Source: Arachnia propionica
GTDB taxonomy: Bacteria > Actinomycetota > Actinomycetes > Propionibacteriales > Propionibacteriaceae
Reading direction: 5' to 3'
Length of the DNA stretch: 33,835 nt
Assembly (NCBI RefSeq): GCF_003932785.1
Contig: NZ_RQYT01000033.1
Coordinates: forward strand, 1 to 33,835
Shown here: one piece after another, positions 10,134 to 33,835 of the stretch
Numbering within the stretch: the first letter of the stretch is position 1
Layout: each line of letters starts with the position of its first letter
Made by a program: the position numbers and the translations under genes
The notes under the pieces: model-generated
Told to the model about the DNA's origin: nothing
The model's database searches: none
The model's input: only the letters and a program-made list of their open reading frames with translations

Positions 10134-11648
10134 TCACTGCGAGTCGAGCATCCGCTTCAACTCCGGGGGCAACTCGAAGTCGTCCATGGACTGGGGCGCC
10201 GGCGCGGTCCGCCCCAGGGCACGCTCGGCGGCCTGTTGCTTGCGCTTGGCAGGATTCCCGGAGACCTTGGAGGCCCGCTTGGTCTGCTTCGCCTGCTTGC
10301 GGGCCTGTCGCTGTGCGGGCATGCCCGGCATCCCGGGCATCATGCCCCCGGCCATGCGCTCCATCATCTTACGGGCCTCGACGAAGCGGTTGACGAGGTT
10401 GTTGACGTCGGAGACCTGGACGCCCGCACCCTTGGCGATGCGGGACCGCCGCGATCCGTTGAGGATGCCGACGTCGTCACGCTCGGCTGGCGTCATGGAG
10501 CAGATGATCGCCTCGATCCGATCGACCTCCTTCTCGTCGATGGCGTTGATGGCGTCCTTGAACTGTCCCGCTCCGGGCAGTTTGCCGAGGAGCTTGGACA
10601 GCGGACCCAGCTTCCGCAGCTGCTGCATCTGGCCGAGGAAGTCCTGGAGGCCGAACTGTCCCTTGCCCTGACTCAGCTTCTCCGCGGCCTTCCGCGACTC
10701 CTCCGCGTCGAAGGTCCGCTCAGCCTGTTCGATGAGGGTCAGCACATCCCCCATACCGAGGATTCGACTCGCCATCCGGTCGGGATGGAACATGTCGAAG
10801 TCCGAGAGGGCCTCGCCGTCTGAGGCGAACATGATCGGCTTCCCGATCACCCGGGCGATCGACAGGGCGGCACCGCCGCGGGCATCGCCGTCGAGCTTGG
10901 TGAGGACGACGCCGTCGAAACCGATGCCCTCATCGAAGGCCTTCGCCGTGTTGACGGCGTCCTGACCGATCATGGCATCCACGACGAAGAGAACCTCGTC
11001 GGGGTTGACGGCCGCCTTGATGTCCGCCGCCTGCTGCATCAGCACCTCGTCGATGCCGAGTCGTCCTGCCGTGTCGACGACCACGACGTCGTAGAGGTTG
11101 CGTTCCGCATGCTCGATGGCCTGCCTGGCCACCTCGACGGGGTCGCCGATCCCATTGCCCGGCTGTGGCGCGAAAACGTGCACCCCGGCACGTTCACCGA
11201 CGATCTGGAGCTGGTTGACCGCGTTGGGTCGCTGGAGGTCACAGGCCACGAGCAGCGGGCTGTGCTTGTCCTCCTTCAACCAGCGGGCCAGCTTGCCCGC
11301 CAGGGTGGTCTTGCCGGCACCCTGGAGGCCGGCGAGCATGAGGACGGTCGGCGGTTTCTTCGCGAAGCGGATCGGACGCGCCTGACCGCCGAGGATCGCG
11401 ATGAGTTCCTCGTTGACGATCTTGATGATCTGCTGGGACGGGTTGAGGGCCTTGCTGACCTCGACGCCCAGGCACCGCTCCTTGACGGCTGCGATGAACT
11501 CCTTGACGACCGCGAGGTTGACGTCCGCCTCGAGCAGGGCGATGCGGATCTCGCGGGTGGTGGCGTCGATGTCAGCGGCCGTGAGGCGCCCCTTGTGGCG
11601 GAGCCCCTTGAAGACGTCGGCCAGCCTGTCCTGAAGCGTGTCGAACAA
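10134..11648 (-). CDS. ffh: Signal recognition particle GTPase Ffh
   Basis: This 504-residue protein binds signal sequences on the ribosome with the SRP RNA and docks with FtsY. The N domain (1-90) is followed by the G domain with P-loop GLQGAGKTT (107-115), DTAGRLGID and TKLDGDARGG. The methionine-rich M domain (~310-480) ends in a basic tail with a GMMPGMPGMP segment. The start is TTG 11648, with GAGGGA 8 bases upstream, and aligns with the usual MFDTL..RL N-terminus. Its partner FtsY is encoded 3.5 kb away; the interval is occupied by the peptide/kinase/regulator genes. Confidence 0.97.
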   Translation of the reverse strand: MFDTLQDRLADVFKGLRHKGRLTAADIDATTREIRIALLEADVNLAVVKEFIAAVKERCLGVEVSKALNPSQQIIKIVNEELIAILGGQARPIRFAKKPPTVLMLAGLQGAGKTTLAGKLARWLKEDKHSPLLVACDLQRPNAVNQLQIVGERAGVHVFAPQPGNGIGDPVEVARQAIEHAERNLYDVVVVDTAGRLGIDEVLMQQAADIKAAVNPDEVLFVVDAMIGQDAVNTAKAFDEGIGFDGVVLTKLDGDARGGAALSIARVIGKPIMFASDGEALSDFDMFHPDRMASRILGMGDVLTLIEQAERTFDAEESRKAAEKLSQGKGQFGLQDFLGQMQQLRKLGPLSKLLGKLPGAGQFKDAINAIDEKEVDRIEAIICSMTPAERDDVGILNGSRRSRIAKGAGVQVSDVNNLVNRFVEARKMMERMAGGMMPGMPGMPAQRQARKQAKQTKRASKVSGNPAKRKQQAAERALGRTAPAPQSMDDFELPPELKRMLDSQ

Positions 11649-11681
11649 ATCAGTGTCCCTCGGTTGATCTGGTGCGGCCCA

Positions 11682-11710
11682 AGAATACCGCGCCCGGGAC
11701 GTCGGTCAGC
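11682..11710 (-). promoter_or_regulatory. Possible ffh promoter
   Basis: On the minus strand, TATTCT (11682-11687) forms a good -10 about 34 bases upstream of the TTG start. A weak -35, GCTGAC (11705-11710), lies 17 bases further, at the end of the kinase gene. The -35 is poor, so confidence is modest. Confidence 0.45.
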
Positions 11711-14024
11711 GCGTGTAGGCGCTGGGTCCACCGACGGTTTCCGCTTCCCTCACCCCGGGGGCGAGGTCGACCCGAACCACCCATTCGCCGTTCTCCGGGC
11801 CGGCGTGGAACGTTCCCCCGGAGAGGTCGACGCGCTCCCGGATGCCCGTCAATCCGTAGCCCAGCGACAGCTGGGAGCTGCGCTGGTGGTTCGGCATCAT
11901 GCTGCGGATCTCGAGCGAGACCTGCCCTCCGTGCACGCCCAGGTCGAAGGAGCACACGCTGCCCCGTCGCGCATATCTCATGATGTTCGTGGCGCCCTCC
12001 TGCATGGCCCTGGTGAGGGTGCGCTGCGTGATCGGAGGCAGTTCGTCACAGGCGCCGGAGATCCGCATGGTGGGTCGGAAGCCGGCGTCGACGAGGTTGC
12101 GTTCGAGTTGGCAACTGACGGAGGTCGGGCGGACCAGCGCCTGGGAATCCACGGTCTGGTCCTCGGACATGACATTGGTGAGCAACGCCAATTCCTGCTC
12201 GGCATCGCCAATGGACTTCTCGATCCTGGTCAGCGCGACCCGCAGTTCCTCCGGGTCCTCGCTCTCGCCGTAGGCCATGCACTGGAGAAGAATCACCGAC
12301 AGGTGGTGTGCGAGCACGTCATGGAGTTCGCGGGCGAGAAGATTGCGTTCCTCGACGCGGGCCTGCTGGGCGGCCTCGAACAGTTCCTCGGCCTTCTCGC
12401 GTTGGGCCTGGCGCAGGGTGAGGAATTGCCGGAGAACCGCGAGACCGAACATCGCGAAGACCATGATCCCGATCGCGGACAACGCCTCCAGGGAGGGCGT
12501 CAGCAGACCCACGATGAGGACCGCGACGGTCCCGATGGTCACGAGTCCCACCCCGAGGCGACGCAGCGGACGGCCGGCGTTGAGCGTCTTCCAGGCCCCC
12601 ATGAGGACCACCATGACGAGCGGGAAGAGGTGGGGCTCGGAGGAGAAGAACAGCGCCCCGAAGGAGATCACCGCGGGCACGGTGCCGACGGGGGCGTACC
12701 AGTAGAGCACCAGCACGGCGAGGTAGGCGATGGGTTCCCAGATGTTGTCCACCGAGGTTGGCCGGAACCACACGCTGTGGAAGAAGATCCCCATGGTGAC
12801 GAGGGAGACCAGGGCGGGTTCGACATACTCCAGCCAGGAGCGTCCACGTGGTGTCCCCTCGTCGTCCCGGGAGGAGACCGGGGTTGGCTGGTCCGGCAGC
12901 ACGAGGACGAGTTCCCACACCGCGTCACCGCGATCGACGCTGAGGGAACCGCCGAGCGCCTGCACCCGCTGGACGATGCGCACGAGTTCCTTCTCCTCGG
13001 CGAGCCGGGGTTCGAGCGGATCGGTGACCCGGACCATCAGCCGGGTCTCACCGGGCGGGCAGGCGAGGCGGATGCACACCTGGTGCGGGTGGAGTCCGGC
13101 TGCGGCGGCTGAGATCTGTTCGGCCACCCTGGCCAGGGTGAGCTGCGTGACGAGGTTGCGGGAGTCCACCTTGAGGTCGATCTGGCGATCCACCTCGATT
13201 CCCTGCTCCCGGAGTCGCCGCACGAGACCGTCGAGCACCTGTGAGGCGACGGGTGCCGCCATCGACTCGTCGCAGCCCTCGGCCACCTCGTCCTCCCGGA
13301 GCATCCCGACCAGGGCCCGGACCCGGGTGACGGCGTCCAGGCAGGCCGCCCGGATCTCCTCGAGCCGGTTCCGAAGTTGCTCGACAGCCAGCTCCGAGCG
13401 GGCCTCCTCGAGGGACTGCATGGACTGGGCGAGCCGGTGACTGACCAACACGCGCAGCTCCCCGGCGAGTCGCAACCGCTCGGCACCACGAATGGCGCTG
13501 GCGTCCTGGGCGAGGATGGAAACCTGAGCCTCACCACGCCTCAGGCTAATGGTTAATTTCCTTACGGCCAATCCCAATGCGGCACCCACCAAAGTGGTGA
13601 ACGTATAGGTGGCATAGGTCGTGAGAGTCGCCCCCAGATCACCAATCTGAAGACCACGAATGGAGGCATATGCAAGAGCGACTATTTCCACGAACAGGAA
13701 TTGCCGGAAACTGCCCACGGCAGCGAAGACCCCGGGCAGCAGCCAAGTGAGCATACCGTCAGCATCGAGGTTGCTCTCCGCCAATGACATCAGGGCTGGG
13801 ACGATGGCCAGGAGGGCGCCGCGCACGGGGCGCCAGAGGAGGACCACGCAGGCTGCCAGCTCCGCCAGCTGCGCGAGGAGGAAGAGGGGGTTGCGATCGG
13901 GATGCCCGAACCAGTCGAGGAAGCCGAGCACGTAAAGCGAGCACAGCAGCACGACCAGCAACGGTCGCCCGATCGCCAACCAGCGGTCGACGGAGCGACG
14001 AGGCTCGAAGACAGTCCTGTTCAT
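11706..14024 (-). CDS. Fused double sensor histidine kinase (degenerate N-terminal module, intact C-terminal module)
   Basis: This 772-residue membrane protein contains two NarL/DesK-type kinase modules in one chain. Module 1 has an N-terminal multi-pass membrane domain (~20-160), then a DHp-like helix in which the usual ELHDVVAH box reads ELRVLVSH (~residue 190): the phospho-acceptor His is Arg and the next Asp is Val. Its ATPase-like region lacks a recognisable N-box Asn and G-box. Module 2 begins near 400 with a second membrane domain and has an intact LARELHDVLAHHLS (His ~565), an N-box in QEGATNIMRYA (~678) and a G-box in GYGLTGIRERV. The gene follows the small secreted-peptide gene by 46 bases with no terminator and faces a LuxR-type response regulator. 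The inferred role is to sense an extracellular signal, plausibly the peptide, and phosphorylate that regulator. The 13.5-13.7 kb part is AT-richer. Confidence 0.88.
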   Translation of the reverse strand: MNRTVFEPRRSVDRWLAIGRPLLVVLLCSLYVLGFLDWFGHPDRNPLFLLAQLAELAACVVLLWRPVRGALLAIVPALMSLAESNLDADGMLTWLLPGVFAAVGSFRQFLFVEIVALAYASIRGLQIGDLGATLTTYATYTFTTLVGAALGLAVRKLTISLRRGEAQVSILAQDASAIRGAERLRLAGELRVLVSHRLAQSMQSLEEARSELAVEQLRNRLEEIRAACLDAVTRVRALVGMLREDEVAEGCDESMAAPVASQVLDGLVRRLREQGIEVDRQIDLKVDSRNLVTQLTLARVAEQISAAAAGLHPHQVCIRLACPPGETRLMVRVTDPLEPRLAEEKELVRIVQRVQALGGSLSVDRGDAVWELVLVLPDQPTPVSSRDDEGTPRGRSWLEYVEPALVSLVTMGIFFHSVWFRPTSVDNIWEPIAYLAVLVLYWYAPVGTVPAVISFGALFFSSEPHLFPLVMVVLMGAWKTLNAGRPLRRLGVGLVTIGTVAVLIVGLLTPSLEALSAIGIMVFAMFGLAVLRQFLTLRQAQREKAEELFEAAQQARVEERNLLARELHDVLAHHLSVILLQCMAYGESEDPEELRVALTRIEKSIGDAEQELALLTNVMSEDQTVDSQALVRPTSVSCQLERNLVDAGFRPTMRISGACDELPPITQRTLTRAMQEGATNIMRYARRGSVCSFDLGVHGGQVSLEIRSMMPNHQRSSQLSLGYGLTGIRERVDLSGGTFHAGPENGEWVVRVDLAPGVREAETVGGPSAYTR

Positions 14025-14070
14025 GTTGTTGTGAGTTCTGCTCGAACCCCGTCCCCCCCTAGGTTATGTT

Positions 14071-14256
14071 TCAGCGGATGTAACCACAGAGCCGCGGGAT
14101 GCGGAACAGGCACCAGAAGCCCTGCGGGGTCGCCTGGGAGACGACGGTACCGGCAGGAGCAGCGTGCTCGGGGGTGACGGCCGTGGCGGACTGCGCGCCG
14201 ACGACGGACAGGCCAGCTGCCAGCGTCAGGGCAGCGGCTGCGATGCGGATCTTCAT
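14071..14256 (-). CDS. Small secreted peptide precursor, candidate signalling peptide
   Basis: This 61-residue ORF starts at ATG 14256 with AGGAG 8 bases upstream. Residues 1-26 are a textbook Sec signal peptide: basic MKIR, a hydrophobic core, and SATA before the predicted cut. The mature ~35 residues begin with a Pro/Thr/Ala-rich spacer and end in GFWCLFRIPRLCGYIR, a basic aromatic segment with two Cys separated by seven residues that could form a disulfide ring. No known peptide family is recognised. Placement directly upstream of a membrane sensor kinase and divergent from a response regulator suggests a pheromone or a bacteriocin-like peptide sensed by the kinase. No exporter or processing enzyme is adjacent; the Sec route would suffice. 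A longer in-frame start at 14418 overlaps the regulator and lacks support. Confidence 0.72.
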   Translation of the reverse strand: MKIRIAAAALTLAAGLSVVGAQSATAVTPEHAAPAGTVVSQATPQGFWCLFRIPRLCGYIR

Positions 14257-14284
14257 GACAACTACTCCTGAGGAGAAAAACAGG

Positions 14285-14296
14285 CTCGGTACCGAG
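14285..14296. promoter_or_regulatory. Perfect 12-bp palindrome between the peptide and regulator genes
   Basis: CTCGGTACCGAG is a perfect palindrome in the 118-base divergent intergenic region, 29 bases upstream of the peptide start codon. A -10-like TAGTAT for the peptide gene lies at 14306-14311 (minus strand), which would place the palindrome near its transcription start. It may be the binding site of the adjacent LuxR-type regulator or of another repressor. No second copy is seen nearby. Confidence 0.4.
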
Positions 14297-14361
14297 TCCC
14301 GACGCATACTACACGTGCAGACACGAAGTTCATCAGTGACATTCGGAGGTAATTCCTCGTT

Positions 14362-14375
14362 TAAAGTATGGCCCA
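14362..14375 (+). promoter_or_regulatory. -10 element of a probably leaderless response-regulator transcript
   Basis: TAAAGT at 14362-14367 ends 7 bases before ATG 14375, so transcription would start at or next to the first base of the gene. There is no ribosome-binding site at a usable distance: the nearest GGAGG, at 14345-14349, is 25 bases away. The -35 is weak, which would suit activator dependence. Leaderless mRNAs are common in actinobacteria. Confidence 0.5.
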
Positions 14376-15061
14376 TGAGTGAAGCTTGCCGCGTCTTGGT
14401 CGTCGACGACGACCCCATGGTCCGTGAGGCCTACCGAATGTTCCTGTCCCGCCACCAGGACCACGTGGTGGTCGGTGAGGCCCGCAATGGCAGGGAGGCC
14501 GTCGAGGCCTACGACCAGCTGCTCCCGGACGTGGTGCTCATGGATCTCCAGATGCCCGAGATGTCCGGCGTCGACGCCACCCGCGAGATCTGCCGTCGCC
14601 ACCCCGAGGCCTGCGTGGTGGCCCTGACCACCTTCGGCACCCAGGAGTACATCGTCTCGGCACTACGGGCCGGGGCCTCCGGTTACCTCATGAAGGACTG
14701 CGGCGGCGCCGCCCTGCTCTCCGGCATTCAGCAAGCCGTGGCCGGTGACATGCCACTGGCCCCCGGGGTCCGACGCGAACTGGTCACCGACCTCATCGCC
14801 GGCCACATCCGGGGACCCGTGGACTCGGAGACCACCAACTCCCTCGCCCCCCGCGAGAAGGAACTGCTGGTATGGCTGGGGCAGGGCATGACCAACGCCC
14901 AGATAGCGACGAAGATGTTCATCTCCGAGGGGTCGGTGAAGCAGTACCTCTCCCACATCGGCGACAAGCTGGGGCTGAAGTCGCGCACCCAGATCCTGGT
15001 GCGGGCCATTCAGCTGGGTCTCATCGACCCGTCACTCATGACCACCACGAGCAATCGCTGA
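14375..15061 (+). CDS. NarL/LuxR-type response regulator
   Basis: This 228-residue regulator has a receiver domain (1-~120) with the acidic pocket VVDDDP, phospho-acceptor Asp57 in VVLMDLQMP, Thr85/86 in ALTTFGT and Lys107 in GYLMKD. The LuxR-type helix-turn-helix (~160-220) contains LAPREKELLVWLGQGMTNAQ, IATKMFISEGSVKQYLSHI and DKLGLKSRTQIL. ATG 14375 gives the usual N-terminus; upstream open frame to 14099 overlaps the peptide gene and is not used. It is the only response regulator here and is divergent from the peptide and double-kinase genes, so it is their likely partner. Targets probably include the shared intergenic region. The gene runs convergently into ftsY across the hairpin at 15075-15120. 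Confidence 0.94.
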   Translation: MSEACRVLVVDDDPMVREAYRMFLSRHQDHVVVGEARNGREAVEAYDQLLPDVVLMDLQMPEMSGVDATREICRRHPEACVVALTTFGTQEYIVSALRAGASGYLMKDCGGAALLSGIQQAVAGDMPLAPGVRRELVTDLIAGHIRGPVDSETTNSLAPREKELLVWLGQGMTNAQIATKMFISEGSVKQYLSHIGDKLGLKSRTQILVRAIQLGLIDPSLMTTTSNR

Positions 15062-15074
15062 CACCGGTTTCACA

Positions 15075-15120
15075 CGACGAGCCCCGAGGCGACGACAGGC
15101 GTCGTCCTCGGGGCTCGTCG
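15075..15120. terminator. Bidirectional hairpin between the response regulator and ftsY
   Basis: A perfect 15-bp inverted repeat, CGACGAGCCCCGAGG (15075-15089) with CCTCGGGGCTCGTCG (15106-15120), encloses a further GACGA/TCGTC stem. It lies between convergent genes, 14 bases after the regulator stop. There is no clear T-run, so it acts either as a strong GC-type terminator or as a transcript-end stabiliser in both directions. Confidence 0.75.
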
Positions 15121-15175
15121 GTGTCGTTGTCGTCACGCGAAGGGCTGCTGTTTGTTTCCCATCACGAAACAGGCG

Positions 15176-16336
15176 TCACTCCCCGAGGATGCCCGCGACA
15201 AAACCCTCCGGATCGAACGGGGCCAGGTCGTCGACGCCCTCGCCGAGGCCGATCAACTTCACGGGAACACCCAGCTCACGCTGCACCTGGATGACGATGC
15301 CGCCCTTGGCGGAACCGTCGAGCTTGGTCAGCACGATGCCCGTGACATCCACGACCTCCGCGAAGATCCTCGCCTGGGTCATGCCGTTCTGACCGGTGGT
15401 GGCGTCCAGGACCAGAAGCACCTCCCCGACGGGAGCCTTCTTCTCGATGACGCGCTTCACCTTGCCCAACTCATCCATGAGCCCGACCTTGGTGTGGAGC
15501 CTCCCCGCCGTGTCGACGAGGACCACATCCACCCCGGTCTCCTTGCCCTGGCTCACCGCGTCGAAGGCGACGGAGGCCGGATCCGCACCCTCCTCGCCAC
15601 GCACGGTCTCCACACCGACCCGTTCCCCCCAGGTGGCCAGCTGCTCGGCCGCAGCCGCACGGAAGGTGTCCGCGGCGCCCAGCACCACGGACCGTCCGTC
15701 GGCGACGAGGACTCGAGCGAGCTTGCCCACCGTCGTCGTCTTGCCGGTGCCGTTGACGCCGACGACCATCACCACAGCCGGGTCACCGTCGGCGGAGTCC
15801 AGCCGGAGCGTTCGATCCATGGTCGGGTCGACGAGACGCAGCAGCTCGGTGCGCAACACCTCCCGCGCCTTGGCGGGGTCGGTCACCCCATCGATGCTGA
15901 GTTCCTTGCGCAGGGCCTCGGTGAGCTCCGTGGTCGGGCCGACACCGAGGTCCGACGAGATGAGGGTCGCCTCGAAGTCGTCCCACGTATCGGCGTCGAT
16001 GCGATCGACGCTCAGCAGCTGCCCGAGCGCCCGGGCCAGCGCGTTGTTGCTCGTGGCCAGGCGTCGCCTCAGCCGGGCGAAGCGTGAACGGGGAGCCTCA
16101 GGCTGATCCAGCGAGGGCGCGGGCAGAGGAGCCTCCGCCTCCGCCCCGACGGGAGCCTCCTCCGGCTCAGGCCCCGCCTCCTCGACGACGCCCTCCCCCG
16201 GCTCTGTCCCCGGGGGTTCGATGGCCTCCGGCTCCTCGGGTGCGGGCAGTTCACGGTTGCCCTTGATGATGATGACGGATGCAGCGATGAGTGCGGCGCC
16301 GACGAGCGCCACGATCAACCAGAAAAACCAATCCAC
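15176..16336 (-). CDS. ftsY: Signal recognition particle receptor FtsY
   Basis: This 386-residue receptor docks SRP-ribosome complexes at the membrane. A single N-terminal transmembrane segment (residues ~3-24, WFFWLIVALVGAALIAASVI) is typical of actinobacterial FtsY. It is followed by an acidic Pro/Glu linker (~30-75) and the NG GTPase domain: GVNGTGKTTT (~191-200), DTAGRLHTK and TKLDGSAKGG. The start is GTG 16336. No ribosome-binding site is visible and a -10 sits 7 bases upstream, so the mRNA may be leaderless. It is downstream of smc on the same strand with 113 bases between them. Confidence 0.97.
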   Translation of the reverse strand: MDWFFWLIVALVGAALIAASVIIIKGNRELPAPEEPEAIEPPGTEPGEGVVEEAGPEPEEAPVGAEAEAPLPAPSLDQPEAPRSRFARLRRRLATSNNALARALGQLLSVDRIDADTWDDFEATLISSDLGVGPTTELTEALRKELSIDGVTDPAKAREVLRTELLRLVDPTMDRTLRLDSADGDPAVVMVVGVNGTGKTTTVGKLARVLVADGRSVVLGAADTFRAAAAEQLATWGERVGVETVRGEEGADPASVAFDAVSQGKETGVDVVLVDTAGRLHTKVGLMDELGKVKRVIEKKAPVGEVLLVLDATTGQNGMTQARIFAEVVDVTGIVLTKLDGSAKGGIVIQVQRELGVPVKLIGLGEGVDDLAPFDPEGFVAGILGE

Positions 16337-31856: not shown

Positions 31857-32014
31857 GAGGGTGCGCGGATAGGCGTATCTACTGCGGTCACCCCGGTGAC
31901 CCCCTGTCAGCGTTGTCCTCCTCGAACGCACGGTCCAGTGCGCTCTTCGTCGTCCGCCTTGCCACGCAGCCACCGTGACGATCCTCGTCACGATCCCCCT
32001 ATCCGCGCACCCTC
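31857..32014. mobile_element. MITE-like element, 158 bp, 17-bp perfect terminal repeats, TA duplication
   Basis: GAGGGTGCGCGGATAGG at 31857-31873 and its exact reverse complement at 31998-32014 bound a 158-bp segment with no coding capacity. Both ends are flanked by TA (31855-31856 and 32015-32016), the duplication made by IS630/Tc1/mariner transposases, which would have to act in trans. Excision with one TA restores an open reading frame across the site. No copy of a parent transposase is in the window. Confidence 0.72.
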
Positions 32015-32151
32015 TAAGTCGCTCTTCAAATTGCTCCTTGTCCGAGACTCTGCAATCATTCTCTCGTTGTCCCGTCATACCCCCATCCTATCGAAGGTGA
32101 TTCCCTCCCCTCGGCAGTGGTTACGCTTCATTGGCTCTGGCCAGACATGAC

Positions 32152-32496
32152 TCAGTCCCAAGTCCCCGAAATCTCATCGGCGACGACGCACAGTACCCCG
32201 AATCCTTGAAGTTGAAACTCGAAACCGGAACCAGTTGCATCTATTCGCGCACTGAGTCCGTTCAGCGGGGGGCGAAAGTCTTCTTTCGAAAATAGCTGAC
32301 GAATTCCGATCATTGATAGCGAGAGACGATGAACGTCTCTCACGCTCTCTCCTTTGTTTGTAGTCACCATTCCACCCGCTGCAGAGCATAAGACTAGTTG
32401 GAGTCCACCCAAGTCAGGATTGATAACCAAGTAGCGGCACTCAACACTTCCCCATCTCAAAGACTGGATCAGTCCGCGGTGCCTGAACTCAATCAT
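32152..32496 (-). CDS. Hypothetical protein, immunity-like, second of an overlapping pair
   Basis: This 114-residue protein from ATG 32496 (GTG 32505 possible) overlaps the end of the preceding gene by 8 bases. I do not recognise the family. It is predicted beta-rich (CRYLVINPDLGGLQLVLCSAAGG spans the middle without gaps), with no signal peptide. The sequence is clearly AT-richer than the core genes. Small size, coupling and closeness to a possible toxin fragment suggest a toxin-immunity remnant, by context only. Confidence 0.6.
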   Translation of the reverse strand: MIEFRHRGLIQSLRWGSVECRYLVINPDLGGLQLVLCSAAGGMVTTNKGESVRDVHRLSLSMIGIRQLFSKEDFRPPLNGLSARIDATGSGFEFQLQGFGVLCVVADEISGTWD

Positions 32497-33397
32497 GAGA
32501 TTCACCCGTCCAACATTCTTTCACAGTAGCCAACTCCCACGGGTCGACGACAACAACCGCTGCGCACTGAACCTCCAACTGGAAATCACCTTGTTCAATC
32601 TCAATACGATACTGCCCGGGCTCACCGCACATCCTTAAGTGTCCGTCGCCCAAGATCAACAGTCCTTGAATGCGCACTTTGTTGACCTTTTCACAGACAA
32701 TCCGGATCGCGGTTTCCTCCACGCCCCGACGGAATTGCATGGATAAACCTACTCTGTCAGTTCGACCACCAAGATCTACCCCGAAAGCTCGCCAGAATTT
32801 CCATTCACTCCCACCTTGAAGCAACTCGGCCACACTCACAGAATTTCCCAGTAAAGGATCAGGGACCAAGGTCTGTGAACTCAAATGCTTCTCAAGATCA
32901 TCAAGAGCTCTATCCAAAAGCACACCGTGATCATCTCTCCTGAACTCACTCAATAGATTCCTACGCGCCTCTTCAGACGTCTCAAGTCTAGTGGCTAAAT
33001 CAACCGCACCTTGCCGGAAGCGCTCGTCATCGCTCAGTCTCGCCAACTCGTACACCGTTGGCAGCACATTCTTGATCAGGGCAGCACACCGCAGGGCCAG
33101 TCCGTCGTTACCCTCGATCTGCTCTACCGAAGATGGTTCACCGTAGGCAATTTCGACAAGAAGATCAAGCGCTGCCACACTGCAAACCCCGGAACGAATC
33201 AAAGAGGCCAAAGTCAAAGTAACTGCTTCCGCAGCTTCATATAATTCCCGCCCGGGGCACACATTTCTCTCGATTTCCTGAGAAGCCCTGTAAGCGGCTT
33301 CCTCCGAATCATCAAGCATCTGATGTATCAACGCAGGCAGGGTAGTTGAGTCCCCCACAGACCTCAACTTCTCCCATTCAGTATCTCGATTAGGCAT
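32489..33397 (-). CDS. Hypothetical protein with helical-repeat N-terminus, immunity-like
   Basis: This 302-residue protein starts at ATG 33397, with GGGAGG 8 bases upstream. Residues ~10-190 are helix-rich with repeats of ~40 residues reminiscent of HEAT-like immunity proteins (TLPALIHQMLDDSEEAAYRA, then LTLASLIRSGVCSVAALDLL). Residues ~190-300 look beta-rich (VRIQGLLILGDGHLRMCGEP, QGDFQLEVQCAAVVVVDP), so it may be a two-domain fusion. No membrane segment. It overlaps the next gene by 8 bases and the upstream toxin-tail-like ORF by 8. Lower GC than the core suggests transfer. Family not recognised. Confidence 0.65.
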   Translation of the reverse strand: MPNRDTEWEKLRSVGDSTTLPALIHQMLDDSEEAAYRASQEIERNVCPGRELYEAAEAVTLTLASLIRSGVCSVAALDLLVEIAYGEPSSVEQIEGNDGLALRCAALIKNVLPTVYELARLSDDERFRQGAVDLATRLETSEEARRNLLSEFRRDDHGVLLDRALDDLEKHLSSQTLVPDPLLGNSVSVAELLQGGSEWKFWRAFGVDLGGRTDRVGLSMQFRRGVEETAIRIVCEKVNKVRIQGLLILGDGHLRMCGEPGQYRIEIEQGDFQLEVQCAAVVVVDPWELATVKECWTGESHD

Positions 33398-33590
33398 CCC
33401 ATTTTCCTCCCGACTCAAAGAGTACATTTTGCGGGAACTGTCCAGGGTCATAACGGCCTTGACATGTGTGGCAGATAGGAACTTCTTTCATGGTTCTCGG
33501 CCGTATCGCTTCCGTGAAATGCATGTCTTGACGTGGAACGCCCAGCTGCCTCCTCACATCCCCTTCGGCGCACCCCTCTGGTAGCATCAT
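33390..33590 (-). pseudogene. Possible C-terminal remnant of a polymorphic toxin
   Basis: This 66-residue frame has a stop just upstream (33606-33608). Its end, EVPICHTCQGRYDPGQFP followed by a short GGKWDA tail, resembles the Cys-pair ending of some secreted toxins, and its stop overlaps the start of the immunity-like gene as toxin-immunity pairs do. The 5' side lies beside the transposase gene at 33666, so insertion probably removed the rest of the toxin. It could also be a non-coding shadow. Confidence 0.35.
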
Positions 33591-33665
33591 GAAACACGTC
33601 GCAATTTAAACACAAAGAGGCAGCTCATTCCGATAGGATAAATCTTGGAAAGAAACCCTGGAAGA

Positions 33666-33835
33666 ATGAACTGCAACATGCATAATAGCGCAGACCTCAC
33701 CATCGACCAATGCCACGCCCTGTTCGAGAAACTGAACAACCATTCCGAGAAGAACACCATCCCACCGATCCTGGGTCTTCTGGAAGCACTGGTGGTGACT
33801 CTGAAGTACCTCAGACGCAACCACGTGCAGGCCGA
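33666..33835 (+). CDS. Transposase N-terminus (3' partial), IS5-like
   Basis: From ATG 33666 (or 33678) the plus strand reads through to the window end for 56 codons. The end, LLEALVVTLKYLRRNHVQA, matches the helix-turn-helix start of actinobacterial IS5-type transposases (LTLRYLRHNHSQA..LA). The catalytic domain lies outside the window. The element's left end should be within ~33590-33660, but no inverted repeat can be assigned from one end only. Confidence 0.6.
   Translation, partial: MNCNMHNSADLTIDQCHALFEKLNNHSEKNTIPPILGLLEALVVTLKYLRRNHVQA

Follow-up and report, generated by a model that had tools for sequence, protein, structure and literature searches.

A conserved gene trio between ffh and ftsY of Arachnia propionica is a probable peptide-pheromone/two-component system

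What would a small Sec-type peptide gene and a two-component system be doing together between ffh and ftsY? The question is raised by a stretch of Arachnia propionica DNA (contig NZ_RQYT01000033.1 of assembly GCF_003932785.1; 33,835 nucleotides, called the window here) whose ffh-ftsY interval holds a peptide gene, a kinase gene, and a divergent regulator gene. An initial annotation, made from the sequence alone, had taken these for a peptide-signaling cassette following the logic of quorum sensing or bacteriocin regulation. Our analysis indicates that the trio is probably a self-contained peptide-pheromone/two-component system belonging to an undescribed actinobacterial family. The cassette family itself is real and conserved, and the window copy is a stand-alone member of it. 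The family is apparently undescribed: no description of the cassette was found in a limited search of the open-access literature, with most subscription papers and all preprints outside its scope.

The arrangement described in the initial annotation is present in the sequence (Table 1). The stop codon of the 61-residue, Cys-containing precursor is separated from the kinase gene by 46 bases, no terminator-like site lies between the two genes in a scan of positions 11500-15300, and the LuxR-type regulator gene diverges from them. The sole terminator-like match in the scanned region falls within the kinase gene (shuffle mean, 1.3). The start of the regulator, the ATG at 14375, was picked by homology; the mechanical open reading frame (ORF) begins at 14099.

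When 198 genomes of the family were searched with the kinase, 57 of them had a match at 1e-20. The full-length tandem kinase occurs in 14 of the 39 genomes of the genus, the 13 others being 34-70% identical to the window kinase, and at all 14 ffh-ftsY kinase loci of the genus a small Sec-type ORF with two cysteines lies directly upstream of the kinase gene, accompanied by the divergent regulator. Both ffh and ftsY flank the cassette in 12 of these loci; the contigs of L034 and L064 run out, leaving only ffh visible in the former and only ftsY in the latter (L, G, and g numbers are our handles for loci, genomes, and genera). Five loci (L068-L072) have extra genes inside the interval. Among the 25 cassette-free congeners, the nine ffh-ftsY intervals that were read are compact or hold other genes (helicase-like, pntAB-like; named by eye). 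No amt-glnB-glnD was seen by eye in these nine, and the suggestion that the cassette replaced amt-glnB-glnD at this site is not supported.

The cassette also extends beyond the genus. The regulator was found at 42 places in 34 of the 198 family genomes at 1e-62 and, in the order, in 27 of 391 genomes at 1e-68, which adds one genome of another family (G400). Two wider searches matched nothing but the genome of the query itself: that with the window regulator in 394 genomes of the class (E <= 1e-62) and that with the L180 kinase in the 198 genomes of its family (E <= 1e-40); in both cases the spread may be wider among more diverged sequences. Forty-three regulator loci were read. A kinase match lies on the divergent side in 31 of them, and a two-Cys Sec peptide precedes the kinase in 28 of these 31; at the remaining 12, the sequence read, only a short piece at some loci (341 bases at L191), contains no kinase match on that side. 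The resulting 28 cassettes come from 27 family genomes (14 of the window genus, three of g12, three of g18, two of g21, four of g23, and one of g29) and from G400. In the four g23 genomes a hisS-like gene neighbors the cassette, and in two of them an aspS-like gene is called on the opposite side (names by eye). The peptide ORF is kept with the kinase in relatives, within the genus and outside it, and this was one of the points on which the initial annotation had let its reading hang.

The precursor encoded in the window is MKIRIAAAALTLAAGLSVVGAQSATAVTPEHAAPAGTVVSQATPQGFWCLFRIPRLCGYIR, with cysteines at Cys49 and Cys57. Across the 28 cassettes, precursors range from 42 to 82 residues, and the distance from the peptide gene to the script-called kinase start runs from -13 to 139 bases. 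All 28 have a Sec-type hydrophobic leader by the script criterion and a two-Cys tail, with 4-11 residues separating the cysteines. It is very improbable that the locus is an ordinary two-component system beside a spurious ORF, or beside a leader ORF without extracellular function. The ORF does lack a Pfam family, and its only NCBIfam match is nonsignificant (0.11), so its assignment to a known family of either collection was rejected. Yet a strict peptide criterion (a hydrophobic, Lys/Arg/His-bearing N terminus plus a C-terminal C-x4-11-C) picks out 28/28 cassettes versus 0/28 opposite strands. Dinucleotide shuffles yield 0.01 such ORFs per locus, and among random windows of 450 bases, the strands of which were counted apart and some of which contain real cassettes, 26 of 3106 qualify. 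Because a looser version of this criterion had served to select the 28 cassettes, the fairer count is the 28 of 31 divergent regulator-kinase loci given above, and this occurrence likewise disfavors a spurious ORF. So does the ratio of nonsynonymous to synonymous substitution rates (dN/dS), which is 0.21-0.37 for the peptide ORF in six close pairs of relatives. For the tail in the same number of pairs it is 0.11, 0.27, 0.36, 0.39, 2.04, and 5.44; the two values above 1 derive from very few synonymous changes. These values show the ORF evolving like a protein-coding gene under purifying selection, its tail changing fast.

The kinase matches HisKA_3 in Pfam, with HATPase_c under its cut-off, and its closest solved relatives by sequence profile are DesK chains (3gig, E 3.8e-12) in the ATPase region only. 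With His568 in the HisKA_3 region and a regulator of Response_reg-GerE build, the pair belongs to the HisKA_3 kinase/NarL-type regulator two-component systems, so that the architecture is less unfamiliar than first supposed. The initial description of a two-module kinase holds insofar as there are two membrane-plus-cytoplasmic modules, but module 1 lacks a phospho-acceptor: Arg191 stands at the position corresponding to His568, and both residues are invariant in 14 aligned orthologues. In cassettes from other genera, the kinase next to the peptide is often a single-module protein of about 400 residues, with the His present in the nine where the motif scan recognized it; at the g12 and g18 loci so matched, a tandem-type kinase follows the single-module kinase.

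Mean pairwise identity was computed for each part of the cassette over the genus's 14 sets. The regulator stands at 0.76, the dimerization/phosphotransfer and catalytic regions of module 2 (DHp2, CA2) at 0.65 and 0.56, their counterparts in module 1 (DHp1, CA1) at 0.54 and 0.34, and the two membrane regions (TM1, TM2) at 0.33 and 0.30; within the peptide the value is 0.46 for the signal, 0.22 for the spacer, and 0.35 for the tail. Partial rank correlations of tail similarity, given regulator similarity, were 0.56 with TM1 and 0.54 with TM2 (p 0.001 each), and 0.16 with DHp2 (p 0.106, nonsignificant). The peptide tail thus co-varies with the kinase membrane domains, as the initial annotation had proposed to check. 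In the L066/L067 pair, the regulators are 99% identical, the TM2 regions 84%, and the tails 72%. Such a correlation is the pattern that a ligand-receptor pair would give, although it is not proof of one.

We also looked for candidate operators with a motif finder run on the 28 regulator-peptide intergenic regions (250 starts for the real set versus 120 for shuffled sets). It returned a shared operator-like motif, TGGCCGAAAGTcAATG, with a log-likelihood of 117.8 versus 53.0-61.9 in six dinucleotide-shuffled sets. Sites are present in 19 of the 28 cassettes, and 17 of the 19 best sites start 80-126 bases before the peptide start, the two outliers lying 62 bases (L076) and 30 bases (L178) before it. 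The pattern TGRCCRNWNGTSARTR occurs 16 times in ten genomes, versus four times for the reversed control. A weight matrix built from the peptide promoters gave 27 sites in 13 cassette-bearing stretches (233547 bases), versus 2.85 in a Markov background. Thirteen of the 27 are training sites, and seven of the other 14 lie 13-105 bases upstream of script-called ORF starts of lanthipeptide clusters; the four g23 stretches hold no site at the threshold used. Two perfect operator-pattern sites lie elsewhere, near a glucosaminidase gene (L197 1501, in G030) and near a gene for an SH3-domain protein (L198 1501, in G019). There is one of each, and chance may account for them; cell-wall enzymes would be a plausible output of a stand-alone cassette.

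The window itself has a weak candidate of its own kind, a 15-mer in the divergent promoter region (Table 1). Allowing at most one mismatch, this 15-mer gives 18 matches in three genomes versus two for reversed-pattern controls; exact matches occur only at three cassette sites, and 13 of the other 15 matches fall inside script-called ORFs. Despite the excess over the reversed control, we do not claim a window regulon from it. A longer, 19-mer version of the window operator was discarded, its one genome match at up to three mismatches being itself, and the reversed control also giving one. The case for autoinduction is weaker in the window than in relatives, as the 15-mer is shared with L061 and nearly with L062 but the common motif is not recognized.

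The LANTHIPEPTIDE link is seen most directly outside the genus, in G195, G049, G055, G190, G189, and G058, where the cassette sits with a gene for the class III lanthipeptide synthetase LanKC (in G189 where the contig ends). In G197, the cassette adjoins precursor genes and an exporter gene, and LanKC lies some 70 kb away. The G195 synthetase, the only one tested, scores 666 bits on NF038151 (cut-off 575), and the remaining LanKC synthetases were identified by similarity to it. Class III lanthipeptide models match three of four precursors tested (two of three from G195 and one from G049), all under cut-off, and one further G195 precursor matches no lanthipeptide model. Prolyl oligopeptidase (L230), FtsX, and ABC exporter genes accompany the cluster. 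Five clusters (L230, L232, L233, L234, and L238) contain one to six precursor-like ORFs, LanKC, an exporter, and FtsX-type ABC genes, the labels outside L230 being mostly by eye or by similarity.

Within the family, 11 genomes have a close LanKC (at least 49% identity) and all of them carry the cassette, versus 27 of 198 overall, a hypergeometric 3.8e-11 that ignores relatedness and linkage; six further genomes have a weak LanKC match, and only G235 among them has a cassette. Within the genus, all four congeners with LanKC (G002, G005, G006, and G037) carry the ffh-ftsY cassette, versus 14 of 39 overall (p 0.012, relatedness ignored). Possible trans control of the LanKC clusters of these congeners, which are unlinked to the cassette, was also considered. 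A single site of 23.3 bits lies in L247, some 765 bases ahead of the LanKC gene, and a group-2 dyad recognized by eye was not found near the clusters. Related regulators (57% and 53%) stand in the LanKC clusters of two congeners (L250 16198-16833 and L252 7152-7799), and no two-Cys peptide was seen beside them. No lanthipeptide cluster appears in the stretches seen around the G079, G400, G148, and g23 cassettes, and a search of the window genome for LanKC gave nothing at E <= 1e-30. For the peptide itself, identity as a class III lanthipeptide precursor was rejected on this last result together with the lack of any NCBIfam lanthipeptide match and, by eye, of an LxLQ-type leader and an S-xx-S-xxx-C core.

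The presence of the cassette in lanthipeptide clusters with shared operator-like sites points to a bacteriocin-type regulation logic, and the original idea of a peptide-signaling or bacteriocin-regulation cassette is supported by linkage within and beyond the genus, selection, co-variation, and this placement. The same neighborhood invites another explanation, that the two-Cys peptide is a small Sec-exported antimicrobial of class IId-like bacteriocin type and that the two-component system times production and self-protection by sensing the peptide or the harm it causes. The tails are aromatic and putatively looped, with a net charge of -1 to +6; lanthipeptide clusters and ABC transporters lie beside some cassettes; and ABC genes stand between regulator and ftsY in L068-L072 (the L068 ATPase passes its Pfam cut-off, the others were named by eye, and the L072 ORF tested there has no Pfam match). 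We nevertheless consider an antimicrobial role unlikely. No adjacent exporter or immunity-type gene was seen by eye in the window or the g23 genomes, the product of the lanthipeptide clusters is encoded by separate precursors with LxLQ-type leaders, and similarity among the tails tracks that among the kinase membrane modules.

Several observations count against a pheromone system. Three divergent regulator-kinase loci (L174, L176, and L179) have no peptide, the small ORFs listed there lying inside the kinase region. G012 (L078), a further genome of the genus, has a 15th full-length kinase match (28% identity) and a related regulator, again without a two-Cys peptide; this kinase lies elsewhere than ffh-ftsY, beside a second kinase, the related regulator, and ABC-type genes. 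The kinase family can therefore work without a peptide. Tail similarity also correlates with the cytoplasmic regions CA1 (0.50, p 0.001), DHp1 (0.32, p 0.002), and CA2 (0.29, p 0.011), and the co-variation was computed from 14 sequences that share ancestry, with a short alignment of the tails. Nine of the 28 cassettes, namely, the window, L061, L062, L034, L063, L065-L067, and L193, have no site for the shared motif, and the window 15-mer has no convincing second site in its genome. Finally, ligand binding, processing, and the disulfide are steps that we infer from sequence.

The peptide-less pairs would also suit an exported peptide that is a private, nondiffusible accessory of the kinase, a co-sensor or inhibitor tuning the response to envelope stress, to redox through the cysteine pair, or to a similar cue. 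Its gene is closely linked to the kinase gene, two cysteines could form a redox switch, and NCBIfam models for UhpB and for the envelope-stress kinase LiaS match the kinase, both far under their cut-offs. The tails, however, are hypervariable except for the cysteines and vary in the spacing between them, unlike a conserved redox switch, and a loosely defined A-x-A cleavage motif is found in 27 of the 28 precursors, which together make a purely accessory role improbable.

For the pheromone system that we favor, the following sequence of events is suggested. The precursor would be exported by Sec, after which signal peptidase I, perhaps with a further protease, would free a short C-terminal tail whose two cysteines probably close a disulfide loop. 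Linkage and co-variation suggest that the membrane modules of the downstream kinase form the receptor for this tail, and the domain architecture that module 1 would serve as a pseudo-kinase sensor while module 2, which has the His, would phosphorylate the divergent NarL-type regulator. Judging by where the computed operators lie, the regulator would bind upstream of the peptide-kinase operon, giving autoinduction, and in relatives would also control the class III lanthipeptide cluster. In the window genus the module stands alone at ffh-ftsY, and its outputs must therefore act in trans.

ComA, the regulator of the ComX-ComP-ComA system of Bacillus subtilis, is LuxR-type. That system likewise places a short, variable pre-peptide directly before a HisKA_3 (PF07730) kinase with multiple transmembrane segments and a response regulator, an order found also in the cassette (transmembrane segments by simple hydropathy), and in both systems the peptide and the N-terminal domain of the kinase stand out as variable; the ComQXPA census reports no comQXPA-like loci outside Firmicutes (PMC4008528). 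Production of ComX is reported to proceed without positive feedback, unlike what the operator-like sites before 19 of 28 peptide operons would suggest for the cassette (PMC7794433). Further differences set the two apart. No ComQ-like isoprenyl transferase gene lies beside the cassette, its neighbors in the window being ffh and ftsY; the regulator is divergent, whereas ComQXPA is four genes on one strand; the tails have two cysteines instead of the modified Trp of ComX, a Trp being found in only 21 of 28, the window tail among them; and the cassette has a Sec-type signal peptide and a pseudo-kinase module in its kinase. The cassette would work like ComX-ComP-ComA but is not a ComQXPA member.

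In agr and fsr, a short cyclic peptide (AgrD) is operonic with its receptor kinase (AgrC) and hypervariable pherotypes occur; the cassette is similar in its short peptide gene in line with a kinase gene and in its hypervariable tail. It differs in its HisKA_3 rather than HPK10-type kinase, its Sec leader, and its two cysteines, and no AgrB-type processing gene was seen by eye between ffh and ftsY, where no profile search was made. In the NisRK and PlnA/BlpC systems, a peptide inducer, a kinase, and a regulator control a peptide-antibiotic cluster, an association that the g12, g18, and G058 relatives also suggest here. The cassette differs from them in that its peptide has no double-glycine-type leader, no exporter gene lies between ffh and ftsY in the window, the inducer is distinct from the lanthipeptide precursors, and the system is actinobacterial. 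DesK, the HisKA_3 kinase type that provides the nearest solved structures for the ATPase region, has one module and no peptide partner, whereas the window kinase has two modules and a peptide gene upstream.

Most known peptide pheromones that act through membrane kinases come from Firmicutes. A conserved actinobacterial family of precursor, receptor, regulator, and candidate operator would provide a testable cell-to-cell signaling system in Propionibacteriaceae, a synthetic peptide would be a handle for switching on silent class III lanthipeptide clusters, and the cassette offers a compact case of ligand-receptor co-evolution with a tandem kinase in which one module lacks the phospho-acceptor histidine. 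A wider proposal, to which we give somewhat less than an even chance, is that these are a separate class of pheromones, in which hypervariable, disulfide-looped peptides leave the cell by Sec without enzymatic modification and are read by pseudo-kinase/kinase receptors. The class would have arisen as a class III lanthipeptide inducer module in Propionibacteriaceae and later been freed as a stand-alone quorum system at core sites (ffh-ftsY, and hisS-like in another genus), controlling unlinked genes and splitting species into pherotypes.

Table 1. Features of the cassette in the window and operator-like sites in related loci (L numbers with positions in those loci)
Feature	Position	Strand	Basis or remark
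Two-Cys Sec-type peptide precursor	14071..14256	-	61 aa; coordinates include stop codon
Signal-peptide part, residues 1-26, ends SATA/VT	14179..14256	-	Hydrophobic N terminus with K/R
Putative active tail, residues 46-61, GFWCLFRIPRLCGYIR	14074..14121	-	Cys49/Cys57 seven residues apart
AGGAG ribosome-binding site of peptide gene	14265..14269	-	Sequence; 8 bases before ATG
Tandem-module membrane histidine kinase	11706..14024	-	772 aa; Pfam HisKA_3 2.5e-11; alignment
Module 1 membrane region, residues 1-165	13530..14024	-	Simple hydropathy peaks; mean pairwise identity 0.33
Module 1 degenerate DHp/CA-like region, residues 174-382	12879..13505	-	Arg191 (13452-13454) replaces His
Module 2 membrane region, residues 395-540	12405..12842	-	Simple hydropathy; identity comparison
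Module 2 catalytic HisKA_3/ATPase region, residues 555-757	11754..12362	-	His568 at 12321-12323
Divergent NarL/LuxR-type response regulator	14375..15061	+	228 aa; Response_reg 1.8e-28, GerE 4.3e-16 (Pfam); orthologues
Candidate group-specific operator TGTCACTGATGAACT, weak	14327..14341	-	Divergent promoter region; same 15-mer in L061, two differences in L062
ffh, flank outside cassette	10134..11648	-	
ftsY, flank outside cassette	15176..16336	-	
Operator-like sites before LanKC	L232 9450, L234 7385		Weight matrix
Operator-like sites before exporter genes	L230 14183, L234 2649		Weight matrix
Operator-like sites before ABC ATPase genes	L230 7560, L233 8113, L234 9769		Weight matrix; ATPase labels by eye
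Seven sites not so placed	L232 2452, 10314; L234 2820, 2891; L235 1039, 4481; L236 7240		Weight matrix

Some minor observations concern other sequence. In genome G010, the same stretch with the start of an SMC gene occurs twice, inverted, on one contig (C1:42571 and 59736; L217 and L220), perhaps as an assembly artifact. The whole window contains no Rfam family or tRNA. At its left end, an ORF on the plus strand at 3-842, open at the edge, has an EndoU nuclease domain (PF14436, E 1.2e-10) at its C terminus and resembles the end part of a contact-dependent or polymorphic toxin; it is followed by small unassigned ORFs, and near this lower-GC end a minus-strand ORF at 1693-2205 matches the transposase DDE family PF01609 at 22.2 bits, under the Pfam cut-off of 23. 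Toward the right end, GC falls to about 51% with a strong GC skew at 32001-33000, and 32000-33835, which holds only short ORFs, is possibly a mobile or foreign segment.

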